Assembly: GCA_018902385.1 (NCBI GenBank)
Contig: JABSSW010000002.1
Span: 1,463,631-1,527,630, forward strand
Direction: 5' to 3'
Origin: Physcia stellaris
Taxonomy: Eukaryota; Ascomycota; Lecanoromycetes; Caliciales; Physciaceae
Length of the DNA: 64,000 bases
Shown: piece after piece, positions 1 to 26,078 of the stretch
Layout: each line of letters opens with the position of its first letter
Position numbering within the stretch: position 1 is the first letter of the stretch
The notes under the pieces: generated by a model
The model's input: the letters and a program-made list of their open reading frames with translations, nothing else
Told to the model about the DNA's origin: nothing
Databases searched by the model: none
Translations under genes and position numbers: made by a program

Positions 1-2036
1 TGTAAACGATTAAAAATTAAATGTAAATTGTTCATTGTTTTTCAATTTGAAATCGATAATCAAATCGAACGTGCGAATCAAAATATCGAAATTCGATTGC
101 GTTTGTATTGCAATTATCGTCAAAACGATTGAATTGATTGAATAAATATCATGAAATTCGTTGACAACAACGATGTTTCAACAATCATCGAATTCATTTC
201 ATTTTTCATTAATAAAAATTATCATTTTCGAATGATTTTTGAATCAAATTTGAATGATTACGAAATCATTAAAAAACGTTTATTGATCAATCAAAACGAA
301 TTCATTGTCGAAAAAATGAATCGTATTATCGAATACGTCAAAATCAATGTTGTCGATACAAAACAGAAAATGATTGTTCGAATCAACAAATTTCGTTTTT
401 CAATAAATTTTGAAATAGAAAATTACGTTTGATTGAATCGTCGTCATATAAAAACGATTCGTTTTTCAAACAAATTCGACGACAAAAAATTGAATTCATA
501 CAAAATGATGAAAAAAAAAAATTTCGTTTATAAGTTGAAATTGTTGACGATATGCATATTTATTCAATTTTTCATTTTTGATTGTTAAAAAAAATTTTAA
601 AAATTCGTTGAAAAAACAACATAACGATTTTTCAAAATCAATTATCGCAAACGAAATGTTTGAATGAAAATTCGATGATATATTGCAATTTCGATATTAT
701 TATTATCGTTTTCAATATCGTTGCAAATGATCGAATTGAAATTTTTATAATCGAATTTGATATTATGTCGACGATAACGAATTTCAAAATATTCAAAACA
801 TTGTAAATGTTTTTCACGAAATCAATTCAAAAACAACAAAATTTGTTTTGCGAAATGATTAAATTGTGAACATAAAATTGTTTATAATCGATTAGAAAAA
901 AATTTAACGTGAATTCGTTACAATTCATTGTTAAATTGATTCAAATAATTTTTTTTTTTTTCGTTTTTCATGTTTATTTCGCGTTATTTACAATCAAATT
1001 TACGTCGCATGAAAAATTGAATCGTGTCAAAAACATTTTCAAAAATTGTCGTCAAATTTTATTGAACAATAAATAATGCAAAAAACGTCAAAAAACAATG
1101 ATGAATAAACAACAAATTAAACGTTAAAAAAAATTTCGAACATTTACAAATTCGTCAACAAAATTTTCAATTGTTTATTAATGACACGCGAAATTATTTG
1201 TAAAATTCGTTCAAAATATTTGTTTTTCAAAAAATTTAATACATGCATATTTCGTTGAATGCAATATACGAATCAATTGTCGTATATGTCGAAATATCGA
1301 CGCGTTAATTTTAATGACAAAAATTTTATCGACACGATCAAATTGTTCGTTTCGTGATATCAATTTGATGTTGCAAAAATTTTCAAAATTGTTAACGCAT
1401 TAAGTCGAATTCACAATTATTTGTTTATTAATGTTCGTCGAAATTATTTTTGACAAAACATATGAATTGATTATTTTTCAAAATATTCATTACATTCACG
1501 TTTTGTCGCATGCGATATACACACAAATTTTCGCATACGCGAAAATGTCAATGCGTTAAACATTGTTACGATGATTTTATCAACATGATCAAATTGTTCA
1601 TTTCATCGTAAATTGATTTGATGTTTTCACGATTTTTGACGAATCGATTTCGCGAACGAAATCGATTTCATAACATTTCGAATTTATTTTTTCATTTTAT
1701 CAATCATTCAATTCAACATCATTCAACAGCGCATTTAGATCGCGCAAAACGTTCGTCGAAAAAAAAAACACAATTCAATTAATCGTTTCGAAACGAAATT
1801 GAAAAAAAACGAAAAATAATGTGACGAACGTACATCGAATTCAACATTTGACAAAATTAATATCGAATTAACATCGTTTTTTTATCACATCGAATATTAA
1901 AATCGAAATTCGACTTGACGCAATCAAAAAATCAAATATTCTACATATGTTTTTGCAAATTTCATGTATTTGTTTTTCATTTCGATATTTTCGTGTAATT
2001 ATGTAATAATATTATATTTTTGCATAATATTTCACA
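1..2036 (+). mobile_element. 3' end of a mutated Ty3/gypsy-like element (integrase region plus LTR)
   Basis: This segment is the inverted counterpart of 9445-11470: the same landmarks appear on the opposite strand, including the frame at 151-432 (93 residues), which matches the minus-strand frame at 11041-11241. In the minus-strand copy this stretch lies downstream of RT and RNase H and upstream of the LTR, so it should correspond to the integrase portion. I do not see integrase catalytic residues with certainty. The block is strongly mutated and AT-rich. The 5' part lies outside the window. Confidence 0.65.
1820..2036 (+). repeat. LTR (TGTGACG...TTTCACA family)
   Basis: A 217-bp sequence beginning TGTGACGAACG and ending TATTTCACA, so it has TG...CA termini. 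Relatives in opposite orientation lie at 9445-9662 and 16739-16954, with a more decayed one near 8398-8640. It is preceded by a purine-rich run (GAAAAAAAACGAAAAATAA), consistent with a polypurine tract and a 3' LTR. Immediately after it the sequence switches to a different, minus-strand element. Confidence 0.75.
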
Positions 2037-2079
2037 AATCGTTCAATTAATTCAAAAAATAACATTCGATTTTTATACG

Positions 2080-2650
2080 ATTTCATAAAAATAACGAACG
2101 TGATAAATTTTTCATTTTTTCATTTATTCGAAATTTATTGAAAATTGATATGATATTCAGTTTGAAAATTATTTGCAATTTTGAATTTTGATCAAAATTT
2201 TTCAATGAAAATGAAATATCGATTGCGTTTCGTAATTAATTGAATTTACGATAATTCACACACAAACGTAATTGATCGTTGAATTTGATCGCAAATAAAA
2301 CAAATAAAACATATGTCGTTTGATTAAATACGAAAATTTTTTTTGCAAATTTTTTTTTCAAATTTTTTTTCAATTTTTAAATTTCGAAAATTCGAATAAA
2401 AAATACATTCGATTGCGAAAAAAAAATTGTTATCGTTTAAAATTCGATTTTATAATCGTATAATTTATGAAAAAACAATTTGATTTTTTTGAAAATCAAA
2501 TATTTTTGATAAATGACGAAAATATTTTGACATTTTTTTTTTATTATGCGTTCGAATATCGATTTGATTTGTTCGTGTTTTAAAATTTTTTGATTATAAA
2601 ACGATTTTTAACGATTCAAAATTCGTTTGTAATGTTTTGAACGCGAAATC
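2080..2650 (-). pseudogene. Mutated Ty3/gypsy reverse transcriptase fragment
   Basis: Minus-strand translation around 2340-2240 gives a segment ending in RLCVNYRKFN, the hallmark of the gypsy RT fingers/palm junction (family form RLCVDYRKLN). The frame stays recognisable towards 2080 and is then cut where the LTR of the neighbouring plus-strand element ends (2036). The plus-strand element therefore appears to have inserted into, or been joined to, this RT. No functional protein is possible. Confidence 0.6.
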
Positions 2651-3420
2651 GATTTGATTGATCGTAATGAAAAACATTGAACGTTTTCGATTTTTTCGAT
2701 TTTTGATATCGATCAACAAACAAAAAAAAATTGAATCAATTATTCGATACGTCGAATCGTCAAAATTCAATTTTGAAAATAACGAAAATTTTGATTGTTA
2801 TTTTTCGTTTCAAAAAATCGTTTATTACGTTGAATTTTTCAGTTTTTTTGACGAATGTCGTTTTCGTAACAATTTAAAATCAATTTCTGAATTATTTGAT
2901 TCGATTGTTGACGATTCGTCGTCGATATCGATTTTTGAATGATTTGAACATTCGAAACATTTCGAATCGATTATATTTGATTCGTTTTCAACAATAAAAA
3001 ATAAAAGTTTGATTTTGAAACGAAACAAAATAATAAATCGAAATTAAATCGTCGTTATGTGTTTTTATTATTTTTTTTGCGATAATTTTGTTCGCGACGT
3101 TAAATTAAATATATTTCATCGACGATTTGATTTGAAAATTTCTAAACGACGAATTTGAATCGTTTGATTGAATATTATTGTAGTGATAATTGCATTTGAA
3201 CGATTTAAAAATCAATTTATCGTAAAATTTCAATATAATTTCGAATGTTTGTTTATTTACGATTTTTTTAAAATTATCGAATGATTATCGAAATCAATGA
3301 TTAACAAAAAAACGATTAATTCGAAATGTAATTTTATCGTCAATTTGAAATATATCGCGTGAATTATAAAAAAAACATAACGATCGTGATAAATTCATTT
3401 CGATTTTTTAAAAATGAATT

Positions 3421-3845
3421 TCATTTCAACATTTTTGCATACAAATTACGCAATTTTTTTATCAATAAAACATAATCAAATGCATCAATGTTTATTAAAA
3501 TTTTTAATTTATGTTTATTATCGTTGAATGATAACGTACAAATAATGATTAAAAATCGTTTTGAAAAAAAATCAAACATATTATCATCGTGAATAAAAAA
3601 AAAACATTTATCAATCGCGATTTTGACGTGAATCGTCAATTTTTCGAATCAAATTCGTTCGAATCAATATCGAAATTCAATTGATTTTTTTTGTAATTTA
3701 TGTCATTGACGTTTTTGAAATTTATTGACGTTGAAACAAAATTTTCAAATGTGAAAAATTTTTCACACGTGAAACATTTGTTCGTAACAATTAATTGATC
3801 GATAATTGAATCATGATTTTTATGATCGTTTGAAAAATTTGACAA
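3421..3845 (-). pseudogene. Mutated retrotransposon gag/protease fragment
   Basis: Two adjoining minus-strand frames (3845-3636, then 3639-3421). The first has a CFTC cluster that could be a remnant of a gag zinc knuckle. The second contains KILINIDAFDYVLLIKK, which fits a retropepsin active site (family form DTGA-x-x-Y-x-x-I) with Thr and Gly replaced. They precede the RT fragment at 2650-2080 in the same orientation and probably belong to the same element. Confidence 0.45.
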
Positions 3846-4199
3846 AAAACGTCAATGTGATTAATTTGACGAACGATATTAATTTCGAAACAACAAACGT
3901 CGATTTGAAAAAAAAATTGATTTTTGAATTCGAATTTCGAATTTTTTTTTCGAATGTTGATCAAATCGTTATACATTTGTTGAATGTTATTTTTTCACGC
4001 GAACAAAAAAAATGATAAACGAAACGAATTGTTCAAAAAGTTTGACGTTTCAACGATATGATAAATTTTTCAATCAAATTTTTTATCAAAATGAATTGAT
4101 CGAAATTGATTTAAATATTCAAACAATGAAAATTCGAATAAAAAAACTGAAAATTTGAATATCGAACAAAATTAAATTTCGATATTTTCGTACGTTGAC

Positions 4200-4345
4200 G
4201 AATTTCAATCGTAAAAAAATTCGAAAATTATTTAAAATGTTTTACAAATCATTTGAAAATTTTTTTATCAATGAAAACGTATTCAATAACATTTGTATTT
4301 ATTAATGTTTGCAAATTATGTTCGTATTTATCAAAATTAAAAAAT
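4200..4345 (-). pseudogene. Second mutated retropepsin-like fragment
   Basis: Minus-strand translation near 4330-4255 gives LINTNVIEYVFIDKK, similar to the protease at 14406-14648 (DIDIFEYVFINKK). It is a separate decayed copy of the same protease type, with nothing intact around it. Confidence 0.4.
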
Positions 4346-4349
4346 TTAA

Positions 4350-7300
4350 TCATGAAAAATTGTTTTGAAATTTATTAAACGTGTTAAATTTTTGAACATT
4401 GTTGAAATAAATAATAAATTTATTGCAATTTTGAAAAAATTTAAACGTTTTTCGATTTATAATTAAAAAAAATTTTATTTTTAATATTATTAAAATAATT
4501 ATCAAAAAAAATTTGATCGAATTCAAATTGAAAATTTATCAAAAATTTATTCATTTCGTTGATTGTTAAAATAATTTTTTTGTTTAATTTTCTTGAATAA
4601 TCAAATGTCAATGATTTAAAAAAAAACAATTTCGTGTTAAATGATTGAAATTATTACAACGATAACAATTTTTGTCGATGTTATTTTAATCGTAAAAATT
4701 TTTTGATAATTTGTAATCGAAAAATCGAAAATTTTAATTTTTGACGTTAAATACGTTGTTTCGATTTGAAAAAAAATTTTAACGATAAATTTTTGAAAAT
4801 AATTCGTGAAAAATTTTTAAAAATTTTCGTGACGAAAATTTTTAAAACGTGTAAAAATTTATTTTTCGATAAATTTTTTAAATTTTTGACTGTTTGAATT
4901 TTTCGTTATTTTAACGAAACGTTTTCGTTCGAAATTGAAAAATGAATTTTTATAAAAATTCGTTTATCAAATTTTGTTTCGAATCGTTAAAACAATTGAA
5001 TTTAAAAAATTGAAAAAAATTTTTCAAAAAATTGAAATTTTCAAAAAAAACAAAAAAATTTCGAAATTCAAAATTTTAAACGCGAAATTGATAATTTATT
5101 TATATATTTTTTTTTGTTCTTTTCGACGTAAATTAAAAATAAAATATCGAAAATTAATTTGAAAAAAATTTTGAAAAATGCGATATCGATTTTACGTTTA
5201 ACGAAAAAATTTTTTAATTTTGTTTTCAATTCAATTACAAAAATTTCGTTGTTTTAATATATTCGTCGACGAAATAAATCGATATTAACAATGAATTTAT
5301 TCTTTGCGAACTGTTTTCAAATTTTATAAAAAAAATTCGAAATATTTTTATTGAATTTAGAAAACGTTAAATTTCGACATTTTGACATTTTTAAAATTTT
5401 TTTGAAAATAAACATTTCAAAATTGAAAAACGACGATTTTTAATTTTTTTAAATCGAAATTTCGTTTTTGTAAATTAAAATTTTCGATTGATTAACAATT
5501 TGATTTTTCGATTTTTCAAAAAATTTTAAAATAATAATTTTTTTGACGTTAATTTCGATTTTTCGAAACGAAAAAAAATTTTTCGATAATTCGAAAAAAA
5601 AACGAAATTTTTTTTTCGAAAAATTTTTTTTTTTAAAATTTTGAAATTTCGAAATTTTGATTTAAAATTACACGAATAAATTTGATTTTTAATTTCGTTT
5701 TTCAAAACATTGTTTTTTTGAAAAACAAATCGAAAAAACAAAATTTTTTCGATAAATTTTTGAAATTCGAAAAATTTTCGATTCGTTCGAAATTTTTGAA
5801 CAACAAATTAATTTTTTTTTAAACGTTTCAATTTCAAACAATTTAAATTTTTGCGTTACGATTTAAAATGAAAATTTTTTTGTAATTTCGATTTTAAAAA
5901 AATTGTTTTTAATTGTTGAAATTTATTTTGTTCAAAAAAAAATTTTTCGATTTAAAAAACGTCGTTCGATTTTTTTGCGTTTTTTCAAAAAAACGTTTTT
6001 AAAAATTTTAAAATTTTTTTATCAAAATTATTTTAAATCGATATAATTTTTTAAAAAAAAAATTGTTAATTGTTAAATTTGATTAAAAATTTTTTCGTTT
6101 TTTTAAAAAAATCGTTTTTTTAATAAAAATAAAAATTTAAATTTTTTTTTTGAAAAATTGTCGAAAAAAAATTTTGATTTTAAAATTTTTTTTTTTCATT
6201 TTTTGTTTTTAAAAATTTTTTGACAAATTGATAACGATTTCGAAAATTTTCATTTTAATTTTGAAAATGAAATTTGTTTTGATTTTGATTAAATTTTTAA
6301 TTTTAAAAAATTGAATTTTTTTTTAACGAAAAATTTATTGATAAAAAATAATAAAATTTAAATTTGAATTTTGAATGAAAATTTGATGACGATTATTTTT
6401 CAATTTATTTTTATGTTTTTTGAAAAAATTAATTTTCAAAAACATTTCGATTTGAATTTTTTGCAAAACATTTTTATCGTTTTTGTAAAAAATTGATTCG
6501 TTGAATAATTTGAAATTTTTTTTTGTTCAATTTGATTTTGAAAATAACGTTTTTTAAATTTTAATAAATGATTTGAAATATTTGATTAAATAAATTTTCG
6601 TATTTCGAAAAAAAAATATTGAATTTTTTTAAAAAAATTAAAATATTATTTTGAAATATTAATAAAAATAAAAATTATGTTTTTTGACGAAAACAATTTT
6701 GAAAATTTCAAAAAATTATGTAAAAAATTTGATTTTTTTTCGTCAATTAAAATCGAATTTCGATTTCGACGAAATTAACGTTAAAATCAAAATTATTAAA
6801 TTTGATTTAATTTTTTCGATTTAACAATTTTTTTTTTTAACGTAATTTTTAAACAATTGTCAAAAATTACGTTAATTTCGACGTAAAAAATTAAAATATA
6901 AATTTGCGTTAAACGCAATTTTTTTGAAAAATATTAATGAAATTTATTTTCAATTTCAAATAAAAATTTACGAATTTTAACGAATTTTCGATTTCGATCG
7001 ATATTGTTCGAAACAAAAACGTACGTCGATTGTCGAACGCAAATCGAACAAATACACGAAATTTTTTTTAAAAATATTTTTTTTCGAAATTTAATAACAT
7101 TATGATTTTGAAAAACAATTGCAATAAAAAAAACAAATTTAATTTTGAAAATTTACAACATTCGAAAAAAATGCGATTGTAAAAATTTAACAATTAACAA
7201 AAAAATCGAAATTAATATCGTTTTTTTGAAAATTTTTTTTTGTGTTTGAAATTTCGAAAAAAAACGAAATTTTACGTTTTAATCGATTTTTTAAATCAAT

Positions 7301-8390
7301 TGAAAAATTTTCAAAATACGTTTTCGAATTTTTCGAATAAAAAAACGAAAATCAAATTTCGTTCGATGTTGAATTTTTCGACGAATAACGAATAAACGTA
7401 ATAATTTTTTTGAAATTATTTTTATCAAAATCGAACAAATAATTATCAATCGAAAAAATCGATATGATAAAAACGAAATAAATTAAAATTCAAAACGAAA
7501 AAATTGTAATTCAAAATTTTGATTTGTAATTTTTTTAACAAAAAACGACAACGAATTGAAAAATATCGCATGAAAAAATTAATTAATAATTTTAACATAT
7601 TTATTATTTAAAAATTTTACATATTTAATTCAAAACAATAATTATTGAAAAAAATAAATTTTATTAATGAATTATTTTGAAATAATTTATTTTGTAAAAA
7701 AATTCGTATTTTCGTTAATTCGTTAACAAATCGTCGTTTTTTATTTAATTTTCAATTTTGATCGTTCAAAATTTCGTTTAAACGATTATAATTTTTTGAC
7801 GAAAAAAATCAAATTTTTTTCGACGTATTTTACGTTTTCGATTTAAATGTCGTCAATTTAAATTATTCAAATTTTTTTTTGAATTTATTATCAATCGATG
7901 AATATTTTTTCAACGAATCAAATATCGAAAATTTTTTTCACGTCGAATTTTTTTAATTTTTCGTTTTGAAAATCAAATCGAAATTATTTTCGCAAACGAT
8001 TTTGTTTTGATAAAAATTTTTAACAAAAACAATTGAAAAATTGAATAAATCAAATTTAAATAACAATTTTAAACGATAATTTTACGTAAAATTTTTTTTC
8101 AATTTTAAAAATTCGATATATTTTTCGACAATTTTTTTTAATCGAAAATTTTTGTTTTAAATTTTTTTCGAAATCGACAAAATATTTTGATTTTTTATTG
8201 TTAAATTTTCGATTTTGAAATGTTTTAACATTATAATTTATTTTTAAAATTTCATAAAATTAAATCAATTTTGAAATTTAGAAATTGAAAAAAATTTTTT
8301 CGAATTTAAAAAAAAAAAAATTTTTGTTTCGTTGAAAAATGTTTTAATTGAAAAAATCGAATTTAAAATTGAAATTTGAAATATATTCGA
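4350..8390. other. Extremely AT-rich decayed block, no gene recognised
   Basis: Long A and T runs with scattered CG and CA dinucleotides. Frames of 60-70 residues occur but are dominated by Lys, Asn, Phe and Ile and match nothing I know. It is probably transposon sequence mutated beyond recognition. Confidence 0.7.
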
Positions 8391-8397
8391 ACAAAAT

Positions 8398-9380
8398 TTA
8401 AAATGTTATGCAAATATAATAATAATTACAAAATTACACGAAAATTTCGAAAAAAAAACAAATAAAAAATTTATATTTTTCAAAAAATAAAAATCAACGA
8501 AAAAAAATTATCGAAAAACGAAAATTTTAAACGATTGAATTTTTTAAAAATTTCGTAAAATTTTTAATTAATGTAAAAAACGAAAACGAAAAAACGAAAT
8601 TCGATTTAATTTTGTTAAATTTGAATTCGATTACGTTGATTTCAAAATTTATTTTTCGTTTTTTTTCAATTTCGTTTCGAAAATTCGATTTAAAAAATTG
8701 ATTTTTTTTTCGACGAACGTTTTGCGCGATTTAAATTTCGAAAATTTAAAAATAAAATGAACGAAAATTTTTTGATGAAATGAAAAAAATTCGAAAAAAA
8801 AATTTAATTCGAAATCGAAATTTTTCAAAATTTTTTGAAAACAAATTAAATTTTTCGCGAAAATTGTTTAAACAATTTTTAAATTAATTTAAAATCATTT
8901 TCGAAAAATTTTTATTTAAAATGTCGATTAAATTTTGACGAATTTTATCGAAAATTTAAATTTTTCGAAATTAAAAATTTTTTTCGAAAAAACGAAAATT
9001 TTTTTGAATTTTGAAAAATTTAAAATAAATTTTTATTTTTCGTTATTTGTTTTCGAACATCAAAAATAAACAATTGTAAAAAAATTAATTTTGTTAGAAA
9101 TTTTGAACAAAATTTTTTGAAAATCAAATTGATATCACGAAAAACAATTTGATTTCGATTTTTTTTAAAAAAAAAAATTAACGAATTCGATTTTCGCATA
9201 TACGAATAAAATTGATCAATTTTTAAAAAACGAAATGAATATGTATTAAACTTTTTTGAAAAAAAATTTTTAACGTTTTTTAAATAATTTCGATTTTGAT
9301 TTTTTAAAAAAATCGCGAAAATTTTTTGACGAATTTGTAAAATTGAAATTTTTGACAATTTTTGTTAAAATATCACGAAA
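8398..9380 (-). repeat. Heavily decayed duplicate of an LTR plus 3' internal segment
   Basis: Landmarks match the adjacent 9445-10150 in order and orientation: AAATGTTATGCAAA, then TTACACGAAAAT, then TTTTTTCAATTTCGTTTCGAAA, then GTTTTGCGCGAT, then CAAATTGATATCACGAAA. This copy has lost more C and G than its neighbour. Sequence to the left of the LTR (8360-8400 and 9410-9444) also looks alike, so this may be a tandem segmental duplication rather than a second insertion. Confidence 0.55.
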
Positions 9381-9444
9381 TTTTAAAAATTTTTTTTTTC
9401 AAATTTTTCGATTTTAAAAATTGAAATTTGAAATTTTTTCAAAA

Positions 9445-9662
9445 TGTGAAATGTTATGCAAAAATATGATATTATTACATAATTACACGAAAATATCGAA
9501 ATGAAAAACAAATACATGAAAATTTGCAAAAACATATGTAAAAAATTTGATTTTTTTGAATGCGTCAAAACGAATTTCGATTTTAACATTCGATGTGATA
9601 AAATAACGATGTTAATTCGATTTAATTTTGTCAAATGTTGAATTCGATGTACGTTCGTCACA
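9445..9662 (-). repeat. 3' LTR of G1
   Basis: A 218-bp sequence, TGTGACG...CATTTCACA on the minus strand. It is preceded on that strand by the purine-rich run GAAAAAAAACGAAAAATAA, as in the copy at 1820-2036. Confidence 0.7.
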
Positions 9663-9699
9663 TTATTTTTCGTTTTTTTTCAATTTCGTTTCGAAACGA

Positions 9700-11470
9700 T
9701 CAATTGATTTTTTTTTTTAACGAAACGTTTTGCGCGATTAAATGCGTTTAAATGACGTTGAATTGAATGATTCGATAAAATGAAAAAATAAATTCGAAAT
9801 GTGAAATCGATTTCGTTCGCGAAATCGATTCGTCAAAAATTTTGAAAACATTCAAATCGATTTACGATGAAATGAACAATTTTGATCATGTTAATAAAAT
9901 TATCGTAACAATGTTTAACGTTTTGATATTTTCGCGTATGCGAAAAATTTAACATTGCATGCGACAAAAAAAATGTAAAATTTTTGAAAAATAATCATTT
10001 TAATCAATTTATACGTTTCGTCAAAAATAATTTCGACGAACATTAATAAACAAACAATTTTGAATTTTTGATTTAACGCGTTAACTAAATTTTGAAAATT
10101 TTTGCAACATCAAATTGATATCACGAAACGAACAATTTGAACAAATCGATAAAATTTTTATCATCACGATTAACGCGTTGAAATTATCGCATATAAACGT
10201 TTGATTTTTAATTGCATTTCAACGAAATATGCATGTATTAAATTTTTTGAAAAAAAATATTTTGAACGAATTTTACAAATAATTTCGATCGTGTCATTAA
10301 TAAACAATTGAAAATTTTGTTGACGAAATTATGTAAATGTTCGAATTTTTTTGACAATTTGTTGTTTATTATTTCATTGCATGACACGTTTTTTACATTA
10401 TTTATTGTTCAATAAAATTTGACGACAATTTTGAAAATGTTTTTGACACGATTCAATTTTTCATGCGACGTAAATTTTGATTGTAAATAACGCGAAATAA
10501 CATAACGAAACGAAAAATCAAAAAAAAATTATTTGAATCAATTTGAAAATGAATTGTAACGAATTCATGTTGACAATTTTTGATCGATCATAAACGATAA
10601 AATTCACAATTTAATTATTTCGCAAAACAAATTTCGTTGTTTTTGAATTAATTTCGTGAAAAACATTCGACGATTTTGAACATTTTGAAATTCGTCATCG
10701 TCGACATAATATCAAATTCGATTATAAAAATTTCAATTCGAATCATTTTGCAACGATATTGAAAACGATAATAATGATATCGAAATTGTAATATATTATC
10801 GAATTTTCATTCAAACATTTCATTTGCAATAATTGATTTTGAAAAATCGTTATGTTGTTTTTTTAACGAATTTTTAAATTTTTTTTTCAACAATCAAAAA
10901 TGAAAAATTGAATGAATGTGCATGTCGTCGAACAATTTCAATTCATAAACGAAATTTTTTTTTGATTATTTTGTATGAATTCAATTTTTGTCGTTCAATT
11001 TGTTTGACGAACGAATTGTTTTTATATGACGACGATTTAATCAAAAATAATTTTTTATTTCAAAATTTATAAAAAAACGAAATTTGTTGATTCGAACAAT
11101 TATTTTTTGTTTTGTATCGACAATATTGATTTTGACGTATTCAATAATACGATTTATTTTTTCGACAATAAATTCGTTTTGTTTAATTAACAAACGTTTT
11201 TTAATGATTTCGTAATCATTTAAATTTGATTCAAAAATCATTCGAAAATAATAATTTTTATTAATGAAAAAAATGAAATAAATTCGATGATTGTTGAAAC
11301 ATCGTTGTTGTCAACGAATTTCATGATATTTATTCAATCAATTCAATCGTTTTGACGATAATTGCAATACAAACGTAATCGAATTTCGATATTTTGATTC
11401 GTTCGTTCGATTTGATATCGATTTCAAATTGAAAAACAATAAACAATTTACATTTGATTTTTAATCGTTT
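9700..11470 (-). pseudogene. Mutated integrase-sized region of G1
   Basis: It lies between RNase H and the 3' LTR, where integrase is expected in Ty3/gypsy elements. It includes the open frame 11241-11041 (66 residues), shared with the inverted copy at 151-432. The identity is inferred from position, not from a clear HHCC or D,D-35-E motif. Confidence 0.45.
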
Positions 11471-12042
11471 ACAAAAATTTTTCAAACGCGATTTACGAAT
11501 TGATCATTTCGATTTGAATAATGAAAAAAAAAATTCATAAATACGAAATACGTAATGTAACAATATTTTGACGCAAATTTGCATTGTTAAATCATCGTTA
11601 TCGATCACGCAAAAAACGTAATAACATTTTTTGATTAAACGATCGATAATAATACAAATGACATTGTTGTTTTTGAAATCAAATAATTCGATTATGAAAT
11701 TTATCGATATATCAATTTATCGTTGATTAAAAATCGACAATAAAATTAACAATTCGTGACGATTATCGTGTGAAAATTTCGATCGTTGACATTTGTGACA
11801 ATTACGAATATAACGTTTGATGAATAATTTCATATTAAATCAATAATAATAACGTTTAATGAATTTTTCAATACGATTCATGTTCGAATGTGCACAAAAA
11901 AATTGATCGTGAACGTCACGAATTATTTCAATCATAAAATTTAATTGATTTGATATTCATAAATTTTCGTTTTTAAAAAAAATTTCGTTTCGATCGAAAC
12001 AATTTTGCAAATTTATTTTTTCGTTGATGATTTGTTCATCGA

Positions 12043-13717: not shown

Positions 13718-14405
13718 AAAAAATGTTTTGATTTTTTTTTTTTTTTAAATTTTGTTAACGATTGAAAAAGCAATCGCGTCAATAAAAACGACATTTAATA
13801 ATGCGTCAAAATCGAAATTTTTTTTCGTCGTTTTCATTTCGAAAATCGTAATTTTAAATTTTCGATTAAACGTCGCGTAAATTTTTGAATAAATCGAATT
13901 TTTTATCGAAACGTTAATTAAATTCGATTTTTGAATTTCGCGTATTAATTTTCAATTTTTCGTTTTTTTTTTTGAAAAATTTATTCGAAAAATTTTTTTG
14001 TTTATTTTTTCGATGACATATTTGAAATTGAAATTCAAAATTTTTTAACGACGTTTTTTTTTCGATTTTTTCAACGATAAAACGAAAAAAAATCGATCGA
14101 AAAAATCGAAATTGATCGTTTTTGAAATATTTGATATTTTTAAACGTTCGTAAAAAAAAAAAACGACGTTAAAAATCGTTCAAAAACGACAAACAAAAAA
14201 TGTTTTATTCGATTATTTGTTTGAATTAAATAATTTTGAAATATCGACGATCGAAACGATAAAAAAAATTTTCGTCATGATTACAATGATTCGAAATGTG
14301 AAATAACATTCGTTATTAATTCATGTTGAAAAATATTTCATGTTTGTTTATTCATGATTTATTTAAAATCAACGAATGTTGTTTTATTTTGATAATAAAT
14401 TTTGT

Positions 14406-14648
14406 TTAAAAAAAAAAAAAAAATTTTGAATGATTTTGTATCGTTATCTTGAACAATATTTGATGAATAATAAATTTGATTTTTGTTTTTTCGAAATTAA
14501 AATTTTTTTTGAATTTCGATAAAAATATTGAAATTAATTTTAATTTATGACAAACTTTTTGCGCAATTTTTTTATTAATGAAAACATATTCAAAAATATC
14601 GATATCAATTAAATTATAAATTATGATTTTTCGATTGTCAAAAAACAA
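14406..14648 (-). pseudogene. Mutated retropepsin (aspartic protease) of G1
   Basis: The minus-strand frame of 80 residues contains YNLIDIDIFEYVFINKK followed by AQKVCHKLKL. The arrangement fits the retropepsin active site D-T-G-A-x-x-Y-x-F-I with Thr, Gly and Ala replaced. It lies upstream of the RT in the same orientation. Substitutions of Pro by Phe/Ser and Gly by Glu/Lys are typical of the whole AT-rich region. Confidence 0.6.
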
Positions 14649-16738
14649 ATTTATTTTTTAATTAAAAATTTACAAAGAAATTCGTTAAAAATGTTATGTT
14701 GAAAATTTCGTGAACAAATTTGATAATTTTTTCGCGTTTTCGAAAAAATAATTAATTTTTCGATTTATCGAAAAATAAAAAAAAAAATCGAAATTTATAT
14801 TTCGTTAATCGATAATCGAAAATCGTTGCAAAAAATATTTTGAAAATTAAAAATTTTTTTTTAATCAAATCGTCGATTCAATTCGAATAACGATTTGTTT
14901 GATTTTGCATTTTTTTCATTCAATGTTTTAAATTATCACAACGACGATTTTTTTTTTTTTTCAAAACAAAAAAACGAAATTATGACAATTTTATAAATTT
15001 TTTTTTTTGAATTGATGTAATGATGATTAATTTCGCAAAATATTTTTCGTTTCGACGAATTCGAAATGTTTAATTTATGATTCAAAAAAAAAATTTGAAA
15101 AAATTATCGTTGTCATTTTGAATACGTCGATGACGATTATCGATTGTTTGAATTTTTCGATGAAAAAAATAAACGAAATCAAAAATTATTCAAATTATTA
15201 AAATAATCAATTTGAATTTAACGATAAATTTTTTTTCAAATCATGAATTTTGTCGTTATCAAATTTTTGTTGAATAATTGATTAATCAATAAAAAAATTT
15301 TGAATAAAATTCGTTGTATAAATTCGAAAATTTCATTTTGAAATCGTCGTATTGACGTCGAATATTTCGATTATGATTTGCATCGAACGTAAATGATATC
15401 GAACAATTTGAAAATTTTTTCAATTATTCGAAAAAATTGACGTTTAATTTTACGTCGAATATAAACGTGTTCGACGATTTTTTTTTTTTAATTATTGAAC
15501 GATTGCAAAAATTTTTGAATTTAATAAAATATCAATTCGAAATTGATTTTCAATTTATTTACGTATTTATTTTTTCAAATATCATATCGAATGTATTCGA
15601 AAACGTTTGAATTTTTGTGTTTAATAAAAGAAAAAAATCGAAATTTAAAAATCAACTTTTTGTTTTTGAACGAATTTTGAAAAAATCAAATTTTTTTTCG
15701 TCATAATTGATTTTTGAAAAATATCGACATTTTGATCATTCGAAAATTTTTTTTTTTTTTTTTTTTTTTAATTTACGATTAACGATCGAATCGTTTGTTG
15801 ATTTTAATACGATATTTATAAATTTCAATTCGATTTGTTTCGAATAAAACGTTAATTTCATCGAATTTTAAAAAATGTTTTAAATTTTTCGTTTTTATGT
15901 ATTTTTCGCGATTGTTTCAAACACGAATGATATTGATGTTTTTGTTTTTATTTTTTCGAAAAAATTTCAAAATTTTTTAAAATCGTGCAAATTGTTCAAA
16001 AGTCGCTTTTTTTAATTTCGAAAAATTAAATATGTCAATTGACGTCAAAATTATAATGAAATTCGATTTTGTAAAATCGAACATTGTTGTGATCATATAA
16101 ATATCGAAAAAACGTTCAGAATTATCGATTTTCTGATTAAAATCGAAAATATTCAGTTTTTTTATTTCGTTGAATCGTTGACGTTTTTTCAGACGAATTG
16201 AAAAAAATTGCAAAAAATAATAAAAATTGAAATCGAAAAAAAAAAAAAAAAAATTCGAAATATAAAAAGTTTAAATAATCGATTGAATATAATGTCGTTT
16301 AAAATAAAAAATTGAATATTATTGAAAATGAAATTTTGATTAATTTTTGATGTTTTTTTGTAAAAACAAATGAATTTTTTCGAAATGATTTGATAAATGT
16401 TTGATGATGTAATCGAATCATTTTTGAAACAAAAAAATTTTGTCAATTAATAATGAAACGAACTTGAATCGACGTTCGAAAAATTATTTTGTATTGTGAC
16501 ATCGATTATCGTTGAAATTCGTTTGTCAAAATATTCAATTGAATCGACAAACGAATTTATTATGTTTCGTTTTTTCAATTTACAATCAATTTGTTACTTT
16601 TGTTGTTTTTTTGAATGATCAAACGATACGAATCTATTATGTTTTTTTATCAATTTTTGAGTTTTGAAACAAAAAGTTTTGTTTATTTGAATGTTCGCGT
16701 ATCATAAACGAACATGAAAAAAAATAATTTCGATATAA

Positions 16739-16954
16739 TGTGAAATGTTATGCAAAAAATATAATATTATTTATATAATTACACGAAAATATCGAAATGA
16801 AAAGCAAATACATGAAATTTGCAAAAACATATGTAAAAATTTGATTTTTGAATGCGTCAAGACGAATTTCGATTTTAACATTCGATATGATAAAATAACG
16901 ATATTAAATCGATATCAAATTTTTAAATGTTAAATTCGATGCACGTTCGTCACA
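16739..16954 (-). repeat. LTR, candidate 5' LTR of G1 or solo LTR
   Basis: A 216-bp relative of 9445-9662 with the same orientation and termini. Flanking pentamers are TATAA (left) and TATTA (right), four of five matching, so a solo LTR with a decayed target duplication is also possible. Confidence 0.65.
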
Positions 16955-18367
16955 TATTATTCATTTCGTCGTGTTGAAAAAAAAAAATTTCAAAAATCGT
17001 GACGAAAAATTTTGATTACTTTTCGACGTATATGAAATTTACGACGTAATGAAAATTTCAAAAACGCGTTGAATCGTGTCAAAAACATTTTTTGAAATTC
17101 AGAATTTCGTATTACAATTCATCGTCGTGATGATGAAAAGACATCGATGTAAAAAAAAAAAATAAAAATGATGAAAAAAAAAAAAAAAAAACGAAAATTT
17201 TTGAACGACGATGCGAAATTAAATTTAAATATTTTCAATTTTCAACATCACGATTTCACGATCGTGAAACATTTTTTTCTAGATGAAAACATTTGTTTGA
17301 ATCATTAAAATTTAAATCATTTGTTTAAAAAATTATTTGAATGAAATTTGCAAATAAAATTTGCGATATTCGTACGAATAAAAATCGTGAATGATCGATC
17401 AATTCGACAATGTTATATACGAAATTTTATATTCAACAACAATGAAACAACGATCGAAATGTTTTTTTGTTATATCATTCAAAATTTAATATGATTGCGA
17501 AAAAAATCGTTTTGATTTTATATATCATATTACGATTAACGAAATCAACAAAAAATGATTTAAAATTTAATGAACATGATTGTCATGTTTTCGATTAAAT
17601 CGTTTCATATTTAAACAATGAAATTGTTTGTATTTTTTTTAATTTTTCGAATTTCTGATATTTTGACGTATAATTCAAAAAACAATTTTTTTACAATTTC
17701 GTGTATAACGAAATATGCAAAAATCGTTTTTCATAACAAAATTTTTTATACATGATTTTGAAAAATCGTTTAAACGTCGAATTTCATTTTTATGCGTTTC
17801 GTTTATTTAATTTTCAAATGAATTTGTTTTTTCGTTTCATACGTATTCAAAATTTTTTTTTTCGAAAATAATATCAAAAAAACGATAAAATTTTTTACGA
17901 CACGAGATTGATTTGAAATTCGATCTTTATCATTTTTCGAAAATTGATTTTTGAAATTTTGTTTTTTTGAAATAATTGATAAAAACAACATTCGAAAATT
18001 CGAAATTAATCGTTCGATTTCGATATCAGAATCGAAATCGTAATTAATTGTTATGTTGTTCAAATTAAAATGATTTTTCGTTTTAAAACAAAAATAATAA
18101 AAAAAACGATTCGATTTTAACACGATTATTGATTGTTTCGTCGATTTCGTCGAAATTTAAAAAATTTTTTTTTTTCGTTTACGATTTCAAAAAACGTCAA
18201 TCGATTTTTTGTTGAATAATCGTTGCGAAAAATTTTTTAAAATTAAAAACGTTTTCACGTTTTTTGTAAATTTTCGTTTTTTTGATACAAAAAAAAACGA
18301 TGATGTTGACGAAAATCGAAAATATCATTTTTGCGATCGCGAATTTTATTCGTATCGAATTTACATC
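16955..18367. other. AT-rich stretch with unrecognised frames
   Basis: A poly-A rich patch lies at about 17149-17192. A minus-strand frame of 106 residues (18123-17803) is rich in Ser, Asn and Lys and includes DSDIEIERLISNFRMLF. A plus-strand frame of 65 residues (18209-18406) has no match I recognise. Either could belong to an older element disrupted by E1. Confidence 0.5.
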
Positions 18368-18372
18368 ATAAA

Positions 18373-18586
18373 TGTCATGTTATGTCAAGATCGTCAATCA
18401 CGTTAATTTGATCGAATTTAACGTTTTGATCGATAAAATATAACATTTCGAAAATTTTCACTTTTTTTCGTTTTCACGATTTAATTTTATCATTATTCAC
18501 AATGTTATCACGATGATTTATCATCGTCTCGTAAACATTGCGTTTGTTTGTAATCATTTGATCATTCAATCGTTTATTTTTTTACA
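18373..18586 (+). repeat. 5' LTR of E1 (TGTCATG...TTTTACA family)
   Basis: Starts TGTCATGTTATGTCAAG and ends ATTTTTTTACA. Relatives are at 29164-29377, 58934-59146 and 59676-59888. Confidence 0.8.
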
Positions 18587-18769
18587 ATTTTGAATCGTTT
18601 AAATTTTCGTGAACGATTGTTCGATCAAATGACATCATTTAAAATTTTGAAAACATTTGTTGTCATTGCGTTCGTGATTCGAAACAATATCGTTATTTCG
18701 TTTCAACAATTATCATTCGACAACACGATCGTAAAATCGTTTTAATTTGAAATCGATCAACGAAACGAA

Positions 18770-19950
18770 TTGATTTCAATTCATGAAAATTCATCAAACG
18801 ACGAATGCATTGTTGTTGTTTTTCGCGTGTCGTTTCGACGTATTATCGTCGTTTCAACGAACGTCGACGATTTCGAATTCGATAATCAAACGAATTACGC
18901 ACAATTGCGAACAATTCAAACGATAATTGAAAAAAAAACGAAAAACAAACGTGAATATAAATTGTTTTTGACGAAAATCAAACGTTTCGATACAACATCA
19001 TTTTTAAAAAACGAAATTAATTCAATTCGCGTTGTTGAAAAAAAGCGAAAACGATCACAAACGTTTTTCAATAACGAAAACGACGATGACAATAACGACA
19101 ACGAAAAATTTCGTAATAAATTTATTTTCAAACGTTCGCGTTTTCGACGAGTCATCGAATTCAAATTCAAAAATTTATTTATTTACAACGTCAAAAATAT
19201 TAAAAAATTTCAATCGTGAATTCGAAACGTCGTGTGAATTTTCGACGCAAATTTTAATTATTTTTTCAAACGTTGTATCAAAATCGTTTAAACGCAACAA
19301 TTTTTTGATGCGATTTCAATCGAATTATAAAAATCGCATCAGAAAATCAATCAATATCGAAAAAAATTGATGATAACGTGATCGTATTTTTCGAAATTTT
19401 TTCACAACGATGTCGAATTTTTTGAAACTCGTCGTTTTGATGTGAATCAAAAATACAATAATGTCAAACAAAAAAAACGATGAATGAATTCGCGACGTAT
19501 TTCGAATCGTTAAAAACAAAATTGAACGTCATCGAAAACATCAAACGAAACAAATTTTTTTATGATTTGAACGATATTTTACGAAAAATTATTATATTCG
19601 ATGCAATTTCGTTGACGATTCGTTAAAAAATTTTGTTCAAAATCGTCAATGCAAAACGATCGTCATTTTATCAAAAATTTTCAAAACGTTTTCGATTTTC
19701 GCAAATTTTTTCGTTCGAAAATCGTGAAAATCAAAAAAACAAAAATTTCGTCAAAAATGATTTTTTTGCGCAATTTGATAAAACGAAAAATCAATTTAAT
19801 AAAAACAAAAAAACGACGTCGATTCGTCGACGAAAAAAAATCGAAATTGTTACAATTGCGATGAATCGAAACATAAAAAAAAAAATTGTTTTTATTCAAA
19901 AAAAAAACAATCGTCGACGTCAATGCGATTCGCAAAAATAAAAACAAAAC
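18770..19950 (+). pseudogene. Mutated gag region of E1
   Basis: A frame of 149 residues (18770-19219) contains NYAQLRTIQTIIEKKTKN and acidic and basic runs. Further frames at 19495-19941 include DAISLTIRQKI and basic Arg/Lys-rich stretches. The position between the 5' LTR and RT fits gag. The same segment recurs at 60085-61500 in the truncated copy E2, which supports its being one element region. No clear zinc knuckle was seen. Confidence 0.55.
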
Positions 19951-20421
19951 ATTTTCAAAATTTATCGAAATCAAAAATGATTCGAAAAATTGAAAAAATT
20001 TGTTGCGATAATCGTCGTTGTCGTGACGAATTTACACAAAATTTAATCAAATAACATATTCATTCGCGTCAACGTTAATATTTTTAACAAATGATAATCG
20101 CAAATGAATTTCATGAATTCGATCGTTAACATAAATTACATTTCGAAATCGTTGACGAAAAAATAAAATTTGCAAAATATCGACGAAAAGTTCATGAAAA
20201 TGAATAATTTCGATGTCGAAAACAAATTTTTCATTAATACGTATCAAATGAAAATGAATGTTCGTGATAACAAAAATAATTTTTTCATTTCGATGCAAAA
20301 ATTTTATTCGTTTCAAAATTTGATGTATTTTCTGATAATGAATTTTTCATGAATAATAAAAAATAATTTACACGTACATTGATTCACGATGACGTAACGT
20401 TACACAATCAAAAAAAATCGA

Positions 20422-21850
20422 TTGAAATTAAACATTTTCGAAAATTTTACGACAATGTTGAACGATGACATTATTTCAATGTACGCGTTGATATGTATTA
20501 TACGAAAAAACGACAAAACGTCGATCGAAATTTCGAACGAATTGCAAATATTCGAAAATGTGTTTTTTTTCAAATCGACAATCACGTTTTTTTCGTACGA
20601 CGAACACGATCATGTCATTGATTTAATGTCGAACAAATTTTCGTTTTTCGAATTTTTGTACAATATGTTTCAAAAAAAATTAAAAATTTTTCAAAAATAC
20701 ATTCGCGAAAATTTTGCGTTGAATCGTATTAAACATTTGATTGTCGATGTTGATGCGTCGATATTATTCATTTTCAAAAAAAATGAAAATTTAAAATTTT
20801 GCGTGAATTACAAAAATTTGAATGCGATCACGATCAAAAACAAAATTTCATTATCGTTGATTGATAAAACATTGAATCGTTTGATAAACGTCGCGTATTT
20901 TATCAAATTAAATTTGAAAAACGCGTATTATCGTATAAAAATCAAAACGAATAACGAATGAAAAATCGCATTTCGAATACGATACGATTTTTTCGAATAC
21001 GTCGTGATATTTTTCGATTTTGTTAACGCGTCGACGATTTTTCAATCGTTCATGAACAAAATGTTCGTAAAATTGATAAACAAATTGTGTGTGTTGTTTT
21101 TAAACGACATTTTGATTTATTTTCGAACGAAAAAAAAATATTGACGTTACGTAAAGACGATGTTTAAACGTTTTCGAAAATTTAATTTTTTCGTCAATTT
21201 GATCAAATGTCGATTTATGCAAAAATTTATCGAATTTTTAAAATATATCATCAATAATAAAAAAATATTCATGAATATGAAAAAAATAAATTCGATCAAA
21301 TCATGATCGATTTATGATAATTTCAAAAAATTGCAAATTTTTCTGAAATTCGCAAATTTTTATCGAAAATTCATCGTAAAATATACGAAAATGTCGCGTT
21401 CATTTTTCGAATTATTGAAAAATAACAAAAACGAAAAACAAATCGACGAATTCATTTGAAACGACGAAACAATGAAAATTTTCAAAAAATTTATTCGCAT
21501 GTTTATCGAAACGTTCATGTTGATACATTTCGATTTCAATAATCGAACAATGATTGAAATCGATATTTCAAAATTCGTTATCGCAAAAATGATTTCGTAA
21601 TTGATGAAAAATCTCGATATCGAAAATCAAACGCAATGACATTTCGTCGTTTTTTATTCAAAAAAAATGATATTTATCGAAATCAAATATTCAACGCACA
21701 ATCAAAAATTGTTTGTTATCGTAAAAAATTTCAAACAATGACGTCATTATTTAAAAAGTAATCAATTCACGATTATCGTAATGTCGAATCATAACAATTT
21801 GAAATATTTTATGTTTATTACGTTTTTGAACAAACGACAAATCAAATAAA
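20422..21850 (+). pseudogene. Mutated RT and RNase H of E1
   Basis: The frame at 20422-20961 (179 residues) shows HDHVIDL, KLKIFQKYIRENF, LKFCVNYKNLNAITIKN and YFIKLNLKNAYYRIKIK, the ordered RT landmarks of Ty3/gypsy. After a TGA where the family has Trp, the palm motif reads LFLNDILIYF (family Y-L-D-D). RNase H follows, with DETMKIFKKFI, MIEIDISKFVIAKMIS and HFVVFYSKK; a TGA again replaces the Trp expected before HFVVFYS. The conserved order shows a once-functional pol, now inactivated. Confidence 0.85.
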
Positions 21851-22259
21851 TTTTATTGTTAAATGAATATGATTTCGAAATCAAATACAAAAATGAAAAT
21901 TTTAATTCGACAAACGAATCATTTCGATGTTCAAATTACGAAAACGAAAACGAAAACGATAATATTTGTTTGTTCACATTGCAAAACAAATTTCGAAATA
22001 TCGCAATTGCAAACATTGCGTTTTCAACGAAATCAAAACAATGTCAAAAAATTTTTGACGAGAAATTTTCAAAAAAAAATTTTCAAAACGAAATTGTCGC
22101 GATATCGTAAACAATGCGTCGAAAAAAAATTGTTGAAACGTGTGACAAAAAAAATTCGTACGAAAATTCATTTCAGAAATTTTTCAACAAAATTGAAAAA
22201 TTGCAAATATTCGACAATGAATGCGTAAAACGTCGCGCGTTCATACGAAACGATAAAAA

Positions 22260-23100
22260 ATTTAAAAATTGAACATTAAATTCGAACAATATTTTACGAT
22301 ATTGACATGTTGTATATGTATCAAATGAAACAAATTTAAAAATCAAAATTTTGCGACGTTGTCACGACGATTTTTTTGCAAAACATTTCGAAATTGAAAA
22401 AATCGTTAATTTTATTCAACGAAAATTTTATTGAATGTACATGCGAAAAAACATCGAAAAATATATCAAAAAATGTGCGATATATCAAAAAACAAAAATT
22501 CATTATTATCGTTTTTACGAAAAATTGTCGAAATTGTCGATATCGACAAAATCATGAAAAAAAATTATCATTGATATGATTACAAAATTTTCATTCAATA
22601 AATGACGCAAAAAAGTTTACGATTCGATCATAATAATAATAAATCGATATATCAAAATAACGATTGACGTTTCGATAAAATTCATCATGAAAACAAACGA
22701 AATGTGTGATTTGTTTTTCGACGACGTTTTTTTGAAATATGATTTATCGAAAAACATAATTTCAAATCGTGAATTTTTGTTTACAAGCAATTTTTGATCA
22801 ACATTGTGTTATTACGCGAAAATTAAACGCAAATTTAATATCGTTTTTCATTCACAAACAAATAATCAAACAAAAAAACAAAATCAGATTTTTAAATATT
22901 ATTTGCGATATTTTTGCAATTACAAACAGAACAATTGAATTTCGTTATTGTTAATGATCGTTTTCGTATACAATTGCGCGAAACACGCGTTTATTAAAAT
23001 AATTTCGTTTAAAATTTTGTTCGAATATATTTCAAATTTCAATTTCAAATTCGATTTTGTTTAACAAAACATTTCGACGACGAAACAAAAATTTCAAAAT
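22260..23100 (+). pseudogene. Mutated integrase of E1
   Basis: The N-terminal zinc-binding region reads RRCHDDFFAKHFEIEKIV, then IQRKFYWMYMRKNIEKYI, then KKCAIYQKTK. This is the Ty3/gypsy HHCC module with the last Cys changed to Tyr. The core continues with MIVFVYNCAKHAF-like sequence at about 22950 before the C-terminal region. Several in-frame stops are present. Confidence 0.75.
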
Positions 23101-23414
23101 TTGTTCGATAAACGAAAAAAATTACAAAAAAATTTGAAACACAATAATGAAACGCAAACAAAATGAATTAACAAAAAAACATTCGCGAAAACATACAATG
23201 TAAAAAACAAAATTATGTTGTCGATTAAAAATTTAAAACAAATACGATCGAAAAAAAAAAAAAAATTGTTCGACAAATACATCGAAATTTTTGAAATTGA
23301 AAACGTTGTCGACACGCAAATTTATCGTTTAAAATTGTCATTCAAATGACGCATTCATTCAAAATTTTACGTGTTTTTATTCGAAAAATATTATATCAAC
23401 GAATTCACAAAATC

Positions 23415-23550
23415 GTTTGCGAAAATAATCTTGATAAACGATCACGAAAAATGAAAAATAGAAAAAATTCTCGACGTGAAAAAAAAAATGTCTCGATATT
23501 TGATTCGATGAAAAAAATATTTATCATATGATAATAAATGAATTAAAAAA
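23415..23550 (+). pseudogene. Mutated chromodomain at the end of E1 pol
   Basis: The translation gives KIEKILDVKKKMSRYLIR, TGA, KKYLSYDNK, TGA. This fits the chromodomain pattern (Y)EVEKIL-x(n)-YLVRWKGY-x(n)-W, with both conserved Trp codons now TGA. A chromodomain after integrase defines chromoviruses, which in known members steers integration toward heterochromatin by reading histone H3 methylation. Confidence 0.7.
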
Positions 23551-24031
23551 AAAATTTGAATAACGTCGACGAAACGTTGACGACGTTCAAACGAAAACGT
23601 ATCGAAATTCAATTGTCATTTTTCGTCAAAAAAAAAAACGATCGTTCAAGCGAAATTTTGCGAAATCAAATTTCAAATTCAGAAAAAAAAACGACGATTT
23701 GTAACAAGAAAAACGCAAAATGCGAATTTTTTTACAATAAATTGTTTCATATGTAATAAAATCAATAAAGTTCATTTTTTTAATAATTGTGTCGTTGCAT
23801 TGAATATGTACAAATGATTAATAAACATATTAAAAATATCAATTAATTTTTTCATGCGATGTTTTTTCAATTCGTCGTCGTTTTTGTGTTAAAAAAATCA
23901 CAAATTAAAGTTTGTGAATTACAATGAACATCGTTTTGAATTTTATTTTCGTTTTTATCGTATCGATTTTTTCGATTGATTACGATTTGTTCGATTTTGA
24001 TAAAAATAATGTTCAAAAACGATTATCACGT

Positions 24032-24578
24032 TTATTCGACGTCATTGTCGTCGAAATTCATGATTTCAACATCAATCGAAATTTGATTTTCATTTTTTTT
24101 TTCATTCGAGAAATTCGCGAAACGCATAATTGAGAAATTTTCATTGACGCGAAACGAATCGATCATAAAACGTAAAATTTGATTGATGTCGACGAATCGA
24201 AATTTCAAACATAACAACAAATTTTCAATAAAACGATATTGATTTGATTTTTTTTGTTGTGTAAAATATTGTTGAATTTTCACAATCGTATTTTTCAAAC
24301 GCAATTGCAAATTGAACATCAAATTGTCGCGTTTGTGTTTTATTGCAATTGTTAAAATCGTCAAATATTGTTGAATTCGACGAACATATTTAAAAAAAAT
24401 TAACGTACAAAATTTGCGAATCGACACGCACGTAAAACATTTGTCGTCGTGAAACGATCGAAAACATTGCGCAAATCAACGCGATCAATTGAAAACGCAA
24501 AATACATATTTCATGTTCGACATCGTCAAGTTTGCGTTTGACGCATTTTATACAACATTTTACACGAAACGTGTTCAC
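24032..24578 (-). pseudogene. Antisense open frame with a Cys cluster, downstream of E1 pol
   Basis: Two overlapping minus-strand frames (24578-24390 and 24427-24032) join by a single-base frameshift into about 180 residues. The N-terminal part has KCCIKCVKRKLDDVEHEIC, a CxxC-type cluster that could bind zinc. The rest is a probable helical segment (QLRLKNTIVKIQQYFTQQKK) with an acidic C-terminus. The opposite strand here has many stops, so the minus strand is the likely coding sense. I do not recognise the family. It lies in the 3' part of E1 but could also be a separate, older insertion. Confidence 0.45.
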
Positions 24579-25174
24579 ATCACGTTTAGAAAATTACAAG
24601 AATTAACACACGAAATCACGAAGTCAAATCAAATTTACAATTTTGATTTTGACGTCACGCGAAATCATTACGTGTTTCAGTAACAACAATCAAAAAAGAA
24701 ACAATAAATTTATTGTTGACAATATTGATATTGTACAAATTGTCAACGTCAACAAAGCACAATCTAAACGCGAAAAGCATTTTTATTAAATTGTTTCAAA
24801 ATAATATTGAAAAAAAAAATGAAAAAATGATCGCAATGAATTTTTGTGTACGCGTCAAAACGTTAATCAAATGTTTAACACATTCATCAAAACAAACAAC
24901 GAACGCGATGAATCGCAAATGAAACGAAAAAAATTATACAACGAACGCGACAAAACGTTTGTTCAACGACGACAAATTAATGTCGATTCGAACAATTGAA
25001 TATTAATTTTTTTCATTTTACATTGAAAGCATAACAATGAATGAAATCGTCGTCACGTCATCGATTCATGAATTACAATGAACATTTCATCATTTGAATT
25101 ACAATAAACATTTGTCATTAATAATGAAAATAATCATGTAAAAGTAAAAATGAATGAAAATCAAAACAAATAGA

Positions 25175-25819: not shown

Positions 25820-25915
25820 TTTATTTATATTTGAAATGACGCAAAGAAATCGTCATCAAAACACAAATCGAAAAACAAAAAAACAAAAAAGCGATGTTCA
25901 AACGTCGATTCGAAC

Positions 25916-26076: not shown

Positions 26077-26078
26077 AA

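Follow-up and report, generated by a model that had tools for sequence, protein, structure and literature searches.

Repeat-induced point mutation (RIP) of fungi is widely taken to favour cytosines followed by adenine. The order of preference is CpA > CpT > CpG > CpC in Neurospora crassa, and in Trichoderma reesei CpA ~ CpG and CpT > CpC (PMC5496416). In the portions of the literature covered here, CpA is also the target described for Zymoseptoria (Mycosphaerella graminicola; PMC4522978), for rRNA pseudogenes (PMC5555474), for Monilinia, together with CpC-to-TpT double mutations (PMC8959702), and for Stagonospora repeats, where it dominates and CpC and GpG are depleted too (PMC2621366). A comparison of ten genomes lists, in the part covered, CpA, CpT and CpG signatures and no CpC one (PMC4352252), and a kingdom-wide k-mer survey of 1,239 fungi describes RIP-like defences as sharing the CpA preference, with lecanoromycetes among the classes with enriched non-coding k-mers (PMC12543289). 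Here we analyse repeat decay in the lichen-forming lecanoromycete Physcia stellaris, starting from a 64,000-nucleotide stretch at the end of a 1,527,630-bp contig (JABSSW010000002.1, positions 1,463,631 to 1,527,630; assembly GCA_018902385.1), referred to as the window, in which AT-rich blocks have lost cytosines followed by a pyrimidine (CpY) and kept those followed by a purine (CpR).

The repeats of this fungus are probably subject to RIP, or to a close equivalent of it, with the preference CpC > CpT >> CpA, CpG; judging from the sequence data, we put the probability of this reading at roughly 0.77. The genome analysed comprises 43.97 Mb in 147 contigs. The published assembly of the species measures 46.57 Mb in 184 scaffolds and derives from an ascospore-grown axenic culture, sequenced by Nanopore with Illumina polishing, and no RIP analysis was found in the part of that genome paper covered (PMC7513301).

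Cytosine mutation in repeat copies

Two families with both intact and mutated copies served as references; E1 and F, the repeats named in an earlier sequence-only reading of the window, are not the ones aligned. The first reference is an unmutated long terminal repeat (LTR) element on the plus strand at 35,875-41,984, lying between mutated blocks. Its 298-bp LTRs are 100% identical, its ends read TGTAAG...CTTACA with AATGT on both sides, and the longest stop-to-stop frame wholly inside it has 165 aa; we take it to be LARD-like. The matches listed for it elsewhere share between 98% and 64% identity with it. The second reference is a GC-normal multicopy sequence at 25,168-28,430 (plus strand) with a 432-aa frame (26,838-28,136) that carries C2H2-like motifs by eye. 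Merging of overlaps among 62 loci (L006-L038, L040-L068) gave 46 segments with a total of 222,306 bases, 16 of which match the LTR family.

Alignments with a CpC conversion of at least 0.4 were classed as heavily mutated. In the 17 such alignments of the LTR family, C-to-T changes affected 1537 of 2135 CpC (0.72) and 1089 of 2429 CpT sites (0.45), with CpA (298/2519, 0.12) and CpG (264/1911, 0.14) near background, the T-to-C background being 0.03-0.09. The copies are graded, and the remaining alignments of this family gave 765/4604 for CpC, 540/5366 for CpT, 429/5457 for CpA and 388/4176 for CpG. The same order was found in two heavy alignments of the second family (CpC 144/214, CpT 114/226, CpA 23/281, CpG 29/216). 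Since these changes are seen site by site in elements that also have GC-normal copies, the loss of CpY is C-to-T mutation and not founder composition. The sequence-only reading had proposed RIP-like decay by a cytosine mutator that prefers CpY; the copy alignments bear this out, with changes falling at CpC > CpT >> CpA, CpG instead of mostly at CpA, and they refine it, as the losses are ordered, CpC going more quickly than CpT.

The cleanest case is a pair of LTR copies on contig C43, which are separated by about 5.7 kb and probably belong to a single element as its two ends. Pooled, they show conversion at 66/86 CpC, 35/80 CpT, 3/88 CpA and 0/52 CpG sites, and the separate counts agree (CpC 31/43 and 35/43; CpT 19/40 and 16/40; CpA 2/44 and 1/44; CpG 0/26 and 0/26). 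CpY thus stands at 101/166 vs 3/140 for CpR (p ~8e-32), and CpC and CpT differ from each other as well (p ~2e-5). Other substitutions number only 9 and 10 in the two copies, with A/T-site divergence of about 3%, so that heavy conversion occurs in copies with little other divergence. Of the 84 CpY sites of this LTR, both copies are mutated at 38, a single copy at 25 and neither at 21; part of the hits are thus independent, and the pattern fits RIP.

Graded copies would also be left by a process other than RIP, in which repeats are methylated at CpY, e.g. by DIM-2, of which a homologue is present, and the methylcytosines deaminate slowly over time. However, T-to-C change hardly differs between heavy alignments and the others (0.091 vs 0.087 at TA, 0.081 vs 0.078 at TG), and because the two classes share this similar background divergence the C-to-T changes look like bursts and not like clock-like decay. 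Moreover, about 60% of CpY sites in the C43 LTRs have changed at about 3% A/T divergence, which by a rough reckoning needs a rate some 30-fold above background, and CpG remains near background. We consider slow methylation decay unlikely. Methylation without mutation, as in the methylation induced premeiotically (MIP) of Ascobolus, does not describe these copies either, since mutations are present.

As in RIP, C:G-to-T:A transitions are found on both strands of the repeated copies, with local strand bias in some alignments (strand balance was taken over unmerged loci). C-to-T on both strands is likewise the outcome that a dedicated cytidine deaminase of the AID/APOBEC type, and not a protein of the methyltransferase family, would leave if it edited repeats. 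AID/APOBEC enzymes read mainly 5' neighbours, whereas here the base at +1 decides. Bases at -2, -1, +2 and +3 had little effect on conversion in nine mutually non-overlapping heavy loci, where LTR positions may align twice, and CpC conversion was 0.56-0.61 for any base at -1. Judged by this neighbour context, such an editor is very improbable as the cause.

Dinucleotide composition of the window and the genome

The pattern was first noticed in bases 1-240 of the window, where 30 cytosines had been counted before A or G and none before C or T, with neither AG nor GG; our count matches exactly (CA 16, CG 14; CC, CT, AG and GG all 0). Over bases 1-25,100 the GC content is 0.222 and there are 0 CC, 0 GG, 34 CT and 62 AG, against about 617 CC+GG and 2166 CT+AG expected under independent bases, while 1197 CA, 1312 TG and 1479 CG are kept, the last at an observed/expected ratio of 4.8. 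The other AT-rich blocks had been described as alike with rare exceptions, and their counts agree: CC 1, GG 0, CT 44 and AG 47 at 28.4-35.8 kb; CC 0, GG 0, CT 36 and AG 41 at 42-47.4 kb; CC 2, GG 0, CT 17 and AG 16 at 57.7-64 kb. CpA and CpG persist, as the sequence-only reading had said, and CpA/TpG is not depleted in the manner of CpC/CpT.

We delimit four CpY-mutated blocks, to which no strand is assigned. The first (1-25,195) is saturated, with zero CC or GG over 25,195 bp and a GC content of about 22%. The second (28,365-35,879) holds a single CC, at 29,076-29,077, the third (41,971-47,491) is without CC or GG, and the fourth (57,705-64,000), which extends to the contig end, has one CC or GG place (58,202-58,203). 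Their GC content is 22-26%, with some 1-kb bins lower (13-19% between 4 and 9 kb). Dinucleotide ratios are ordinary in the GC-normal blocks at 25.1-28.4, 35.8-42 and 47.5-57.7 kb, the last of which (47,492-57,704, likewise without a strand) serves as an internal control with long frames, e.g. one of 843 aa at 52,239-54,770. Within the first block, positions 1-2036 and 9445-11,473 form an inverted pair with 90% identity despite mutation saturation of both copies.

The same trend appears in 500-bp bins, those outside the window being drawn not at random but mostly from copies of the two families with the adjoining DNA, to which four sampled stretches were added. From GC 0.50-0.55 to GC 0.20-0.25, the frequency of CC/GG falls from 0.065 to 0.0002 and that of CT/AG from 0.066 to 0.004. 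CA/TG goes from 0.071 to 0.057 (0.055-0.057 over GC 0.15-0.25), and CG from 0.058 to 0.053, with 0.033 in the six bins at GC 0.15-0.20. Three of the four sampled 5-kb stretches are GC-normal, as is the 47.5-57.7 kb block. The reach of the rule is genome-wide: across the whole 44 Mb, dinucleotides with ten A/T on each side, counted on both strands, number 12 for CC, 301 for CT, 4497 for CA and 4208 for CG (2104 places, each its own reverse complement), and the reversed controls number 3309 for TC, 1468 for AC and 872 for GC.

These counts bear on the alternative, raised by the sequence-only reading, that ordinary CpA RIP acts together with a second, CpY-directed process. The slight fall of CA/TG in the most AT-rich bins is what such an overlay would predict. 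However, the usual CpA-RIP indices (TA/AT > 1.15 and a substrate index (CA+TG)/(AC+GT) < 0.75) are satisfied by 0 of 128 bins in the window and 0 of 427 elsewhere, and AT-flanked CA, at 4497 vs 12 for CC, is the commonest C dinucleotide genome-wide. This alternative is close to refuted. The CpA preference of canonical Pezizomycotina RIP is absent from the alignments themselves (CpA 298/2519 vs CpC 1537/2135), and neither is there a sign of the basidiomycete RIP-like targeting of CpG or TpCpG (CpG 264/1911, 0/52 in the C43 LTRs, and the excess of CG noted above). Since target preference differs from fungus to fungus (PMC5496416, PMC4352252), the missing CpA bias points to a variant and is by itself no argument against RIP.

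An artefact of assembly or base calling, with methylcytosine read as T in Nanopore data, would be conceivable given that the published assembly is Nanopore-based, yet according to the genome paper it was polished twice with Illumina reads (PMC7513301). A miscall would presumably touch only reads of the methylated strand, so that 25 kb without CC or GG would be unexpected, and the graded copies in two families would be left unexplained. We give this explanation hardly any credence.

Candidate mutators and protein-level consequences

The proposed process would mutate repeats on both strands at cytosines before a pyrimidine, CpC first and then CpT, until the substrate is exhausted, with CpA and CpG spared or nearly so. 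C5-methyltransferases read bases around their target, and in the proposed enzyme the base 3' of the cytosine would determine the choice, a pyrimidine being accepted there in place of A. At exhaustion only purine-followed cytosines would remain, i.e. 0.071 + 0.058 = 0.13 per strand, which sets a GC floor of about 26%; this predicted value is close to the observed GC of the blocks. The process may be RIP proper, which is set off by duplication and acts before meiosis.

The sequence-only reading had pointed to the RID and DIM-2 homologues of the genome, and both are present together with a second RID-like enzyme; the genome thus has the RID/Masc1-class methyltransferase homologue expected for RIP. 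The RID homologue (P0001) lies on contig C5, has 932 aa and carries the motifs SPPCQ and EQT. The second class-I, RID/Masc1-like gene (L001, contig C6, 791,557-792,528) has SPPCQSFSPAQ and EET, is about 40% identical to RID in its catalytic part and has close relatives in Heterodermia. The DIM-2 homologue matches the solved chain 9bap (Apo-DIM2) at 2e-181. For a tree, 27 rows were chosen and 24 kept, P0291, P0332 and P0348 being dropped as they are without the domain-cutting motif. In it the second enzyme groups with Heterodermia (100/100) and stands outside the RID group; support is below 80 on 12 inner branches out of 21, and the only reading we take is that the two Physcia class-I enzymes are in separate groups. 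A structure model of RID, built with 36 of the best 120 relatives aligned, has a mean predicted local distance difference test score (pLDDT) of 62 and is confident over the methyltransferase region as well as over residues of about 195-395. DNMT1, MET1, ZMET2 and DIM2 make up nearly all of its 50 best Foldseek matches, and the model gives no explanation of base choice.

We infer that the mutator belongs to the RID/Masc1 family of class-I DNA methyltransferases, with RID as first choice and the second, divergent member as the alternative. If RIP is granted, our judgement favours RID as the probable agent, with the second enzyme a possible and DIM-2 an improbable one. The simplest cause would be an altered target recognition in a RID-class enzyme. 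More tentatively, the second class-I methyltransferase, which has diverged fast and has a relative in Heterodermia, might itself carry out RIP in Physciaceae or be the route by which RIP was re-tuned there. That scenario, which we hold to be doubtful, would mean that a RIP enzyme reading a 3' pyrimidine has evolved independently and that genome defence has switched its target specificity within the lichen fungi.

Several points weigh against RIP with a CpY preference. The evidence comes from one species only. The CpC value of 0.72 in the heavy class is inflated, since that class was picked by CpC conversion, leaving the CpT, CpA and CpG values unaffected. C-to-T change at CpA and CpG is somewhat raised in heavy alignments (0.118 and 0.138 vs 0.079 and 0.093 in the others), and the two window bins richest in AT have CA/TG and CG at 0.036 and 0.026. 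A weak activity at CpR may account for both observations; for these bins, and for the 1-kb bins of 13-19% GC, ordinary AT drift or descent from an AT-rich ancestor would be alternatives. Further, not every repeat is hit: in the second family, 24 of the 26 segments left after merging fall outside the heavily mutated class. Of 29 other loci of this family (L040-L068), 20 are less than 80% identical to the reference, and these might fall below a homology threshold and hence be spared. Finally, the LTR element at 35,875-41,984 and its 6.1-kb counterpart on contig C30 (312,210-318,320) are 98% identical and both unmutated. We interpret this pair as the result of recent movement, not yet reached by mutation; given that ascospores were the source of the culture, insertion must have been very recent unless the process is absent from some cycles.

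By enumeration of the genetic code, TGG to TGA is the sole sense-to-stop change under CpY mutation, while CpA mutation adds stops from CAA and CAG. Of the protein pattern described in the sequence-only reading (Gln and Arg surviving, Pro to Phe or Ser, Gly to Glu or Lys, Trp to stop), this enumeration confirms the Trp change; the other amino-acid changes follow from the rule and were not tallied. Since only Trp codons can turn into stops, long open frames are expected in mutated blocks. Frames at 31,171-32,040, 20,398-20,961 and 34,841-35,527 are open there over 187-289 aa, and the last contains a motif resembling the C2H2-like motif of the multicopy family at 25,168-28,430. The frame at 20,398-20,961 (plus strand) is a mutated reverse-transcriptase fragment, open over 187 aa and without Pro, Gly or Trp; PF00078 is found in many of its listed relatives. 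The best 120 of its 135 relatives were scored for Pro, Gly and Trp against Gln and His; among the first 20 of them, 20/20 are without Pro and 19/20 without Gly, and all retain Arg plus some His or Gln. Other relatives look CpA- or CpG-mutated by eye. We dropped protein composition as evidence on other species, since a query itself lacking Pro and Gly selects such relatives, and none of the relatives' DNA was found in a scan of IMG/VR.

Comparison with known systems

What appears to be new here is a RIP variant, or a process hardly distinguishable from RIP, with an inverted context and an almost all-or-none dependence on the +1 base. Every bin examined scores as free of RIP by the widely used indices TA/AT and (CA+TG)/(AC+GT), even though one block of more than 25 kb is saturated, so that surveys relying on them would miss the CpY type. 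The genetics change as well, stops arising from Trp codons only, and a natural variant of inverted specificity makes RID chemistry and the residues that choose the dinucleotide testable. No repeat-directed process that prefers CpC was found described in the open-licence literature covered, a coverage that excludes supplements and Clutterbuck 2011.

The nearest thing to a CpC signal in that literature is Table 2 of the Rhizoctonia solani AG8 study, where single-nucleotide polymorphisms (SNPs) at CpC are the most frequent of the CpN classes, with a mean distance of 214 bp genome-wide and 301 bp in repeats (PMC4014442). However, the authors call the bias CpG, the SNPs are those of a heterokaryon, repeats carry them less densely than genes do, and changes occur at CpA, CpT and CpG too (PMC4014442). 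The CpG-type RIP-like mutation of basidiomycetes and Tuber resembles that of Physcia in its C-to-T bias in transposons (PMC4352252, PMC4014442), but CpG is the best-preserved C dinucleotide in Physcia. Closer in one respect are Magnaporthe oryzae, Botrytis cinerea and Sclerotinia, where CpT is a main target and a class-I (RID/Masc1) enzyme is present; in the part of that comparison covered, CpA is their first or second target and CpC is unlisted, the reverse of Physcia (PMC4352252). With the RID-dependent RIP of Neurospora crassa, Physcia shares C-to-T change on both strands in repeats and the RID and DIM-2 homologues, and differs in that CpC > CpT while CpA and CpG stay near background.

Among lichen fungi, Cladonia rangiformis is like Physcia in its sharp-edged, AT-rich transposon blocks and its RID and DIM-2 homologues; the part of the report covered states no context, and its GC peak of about 16% lies under the floor of the CpY rule (PMC12542154). 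CpA indices class Cladonia metacorallifera and Gyalolechia flavorubescens as RIP-positive (PMC7882544), and the repeats of Endocarpon pusillum, with indices of 1.47 and 0.70, are of the CpA type, unlike those of Physcia (PMC3897900). The CpA-positive state of these three species suggests that the CpY rule of Physcia may be derived.

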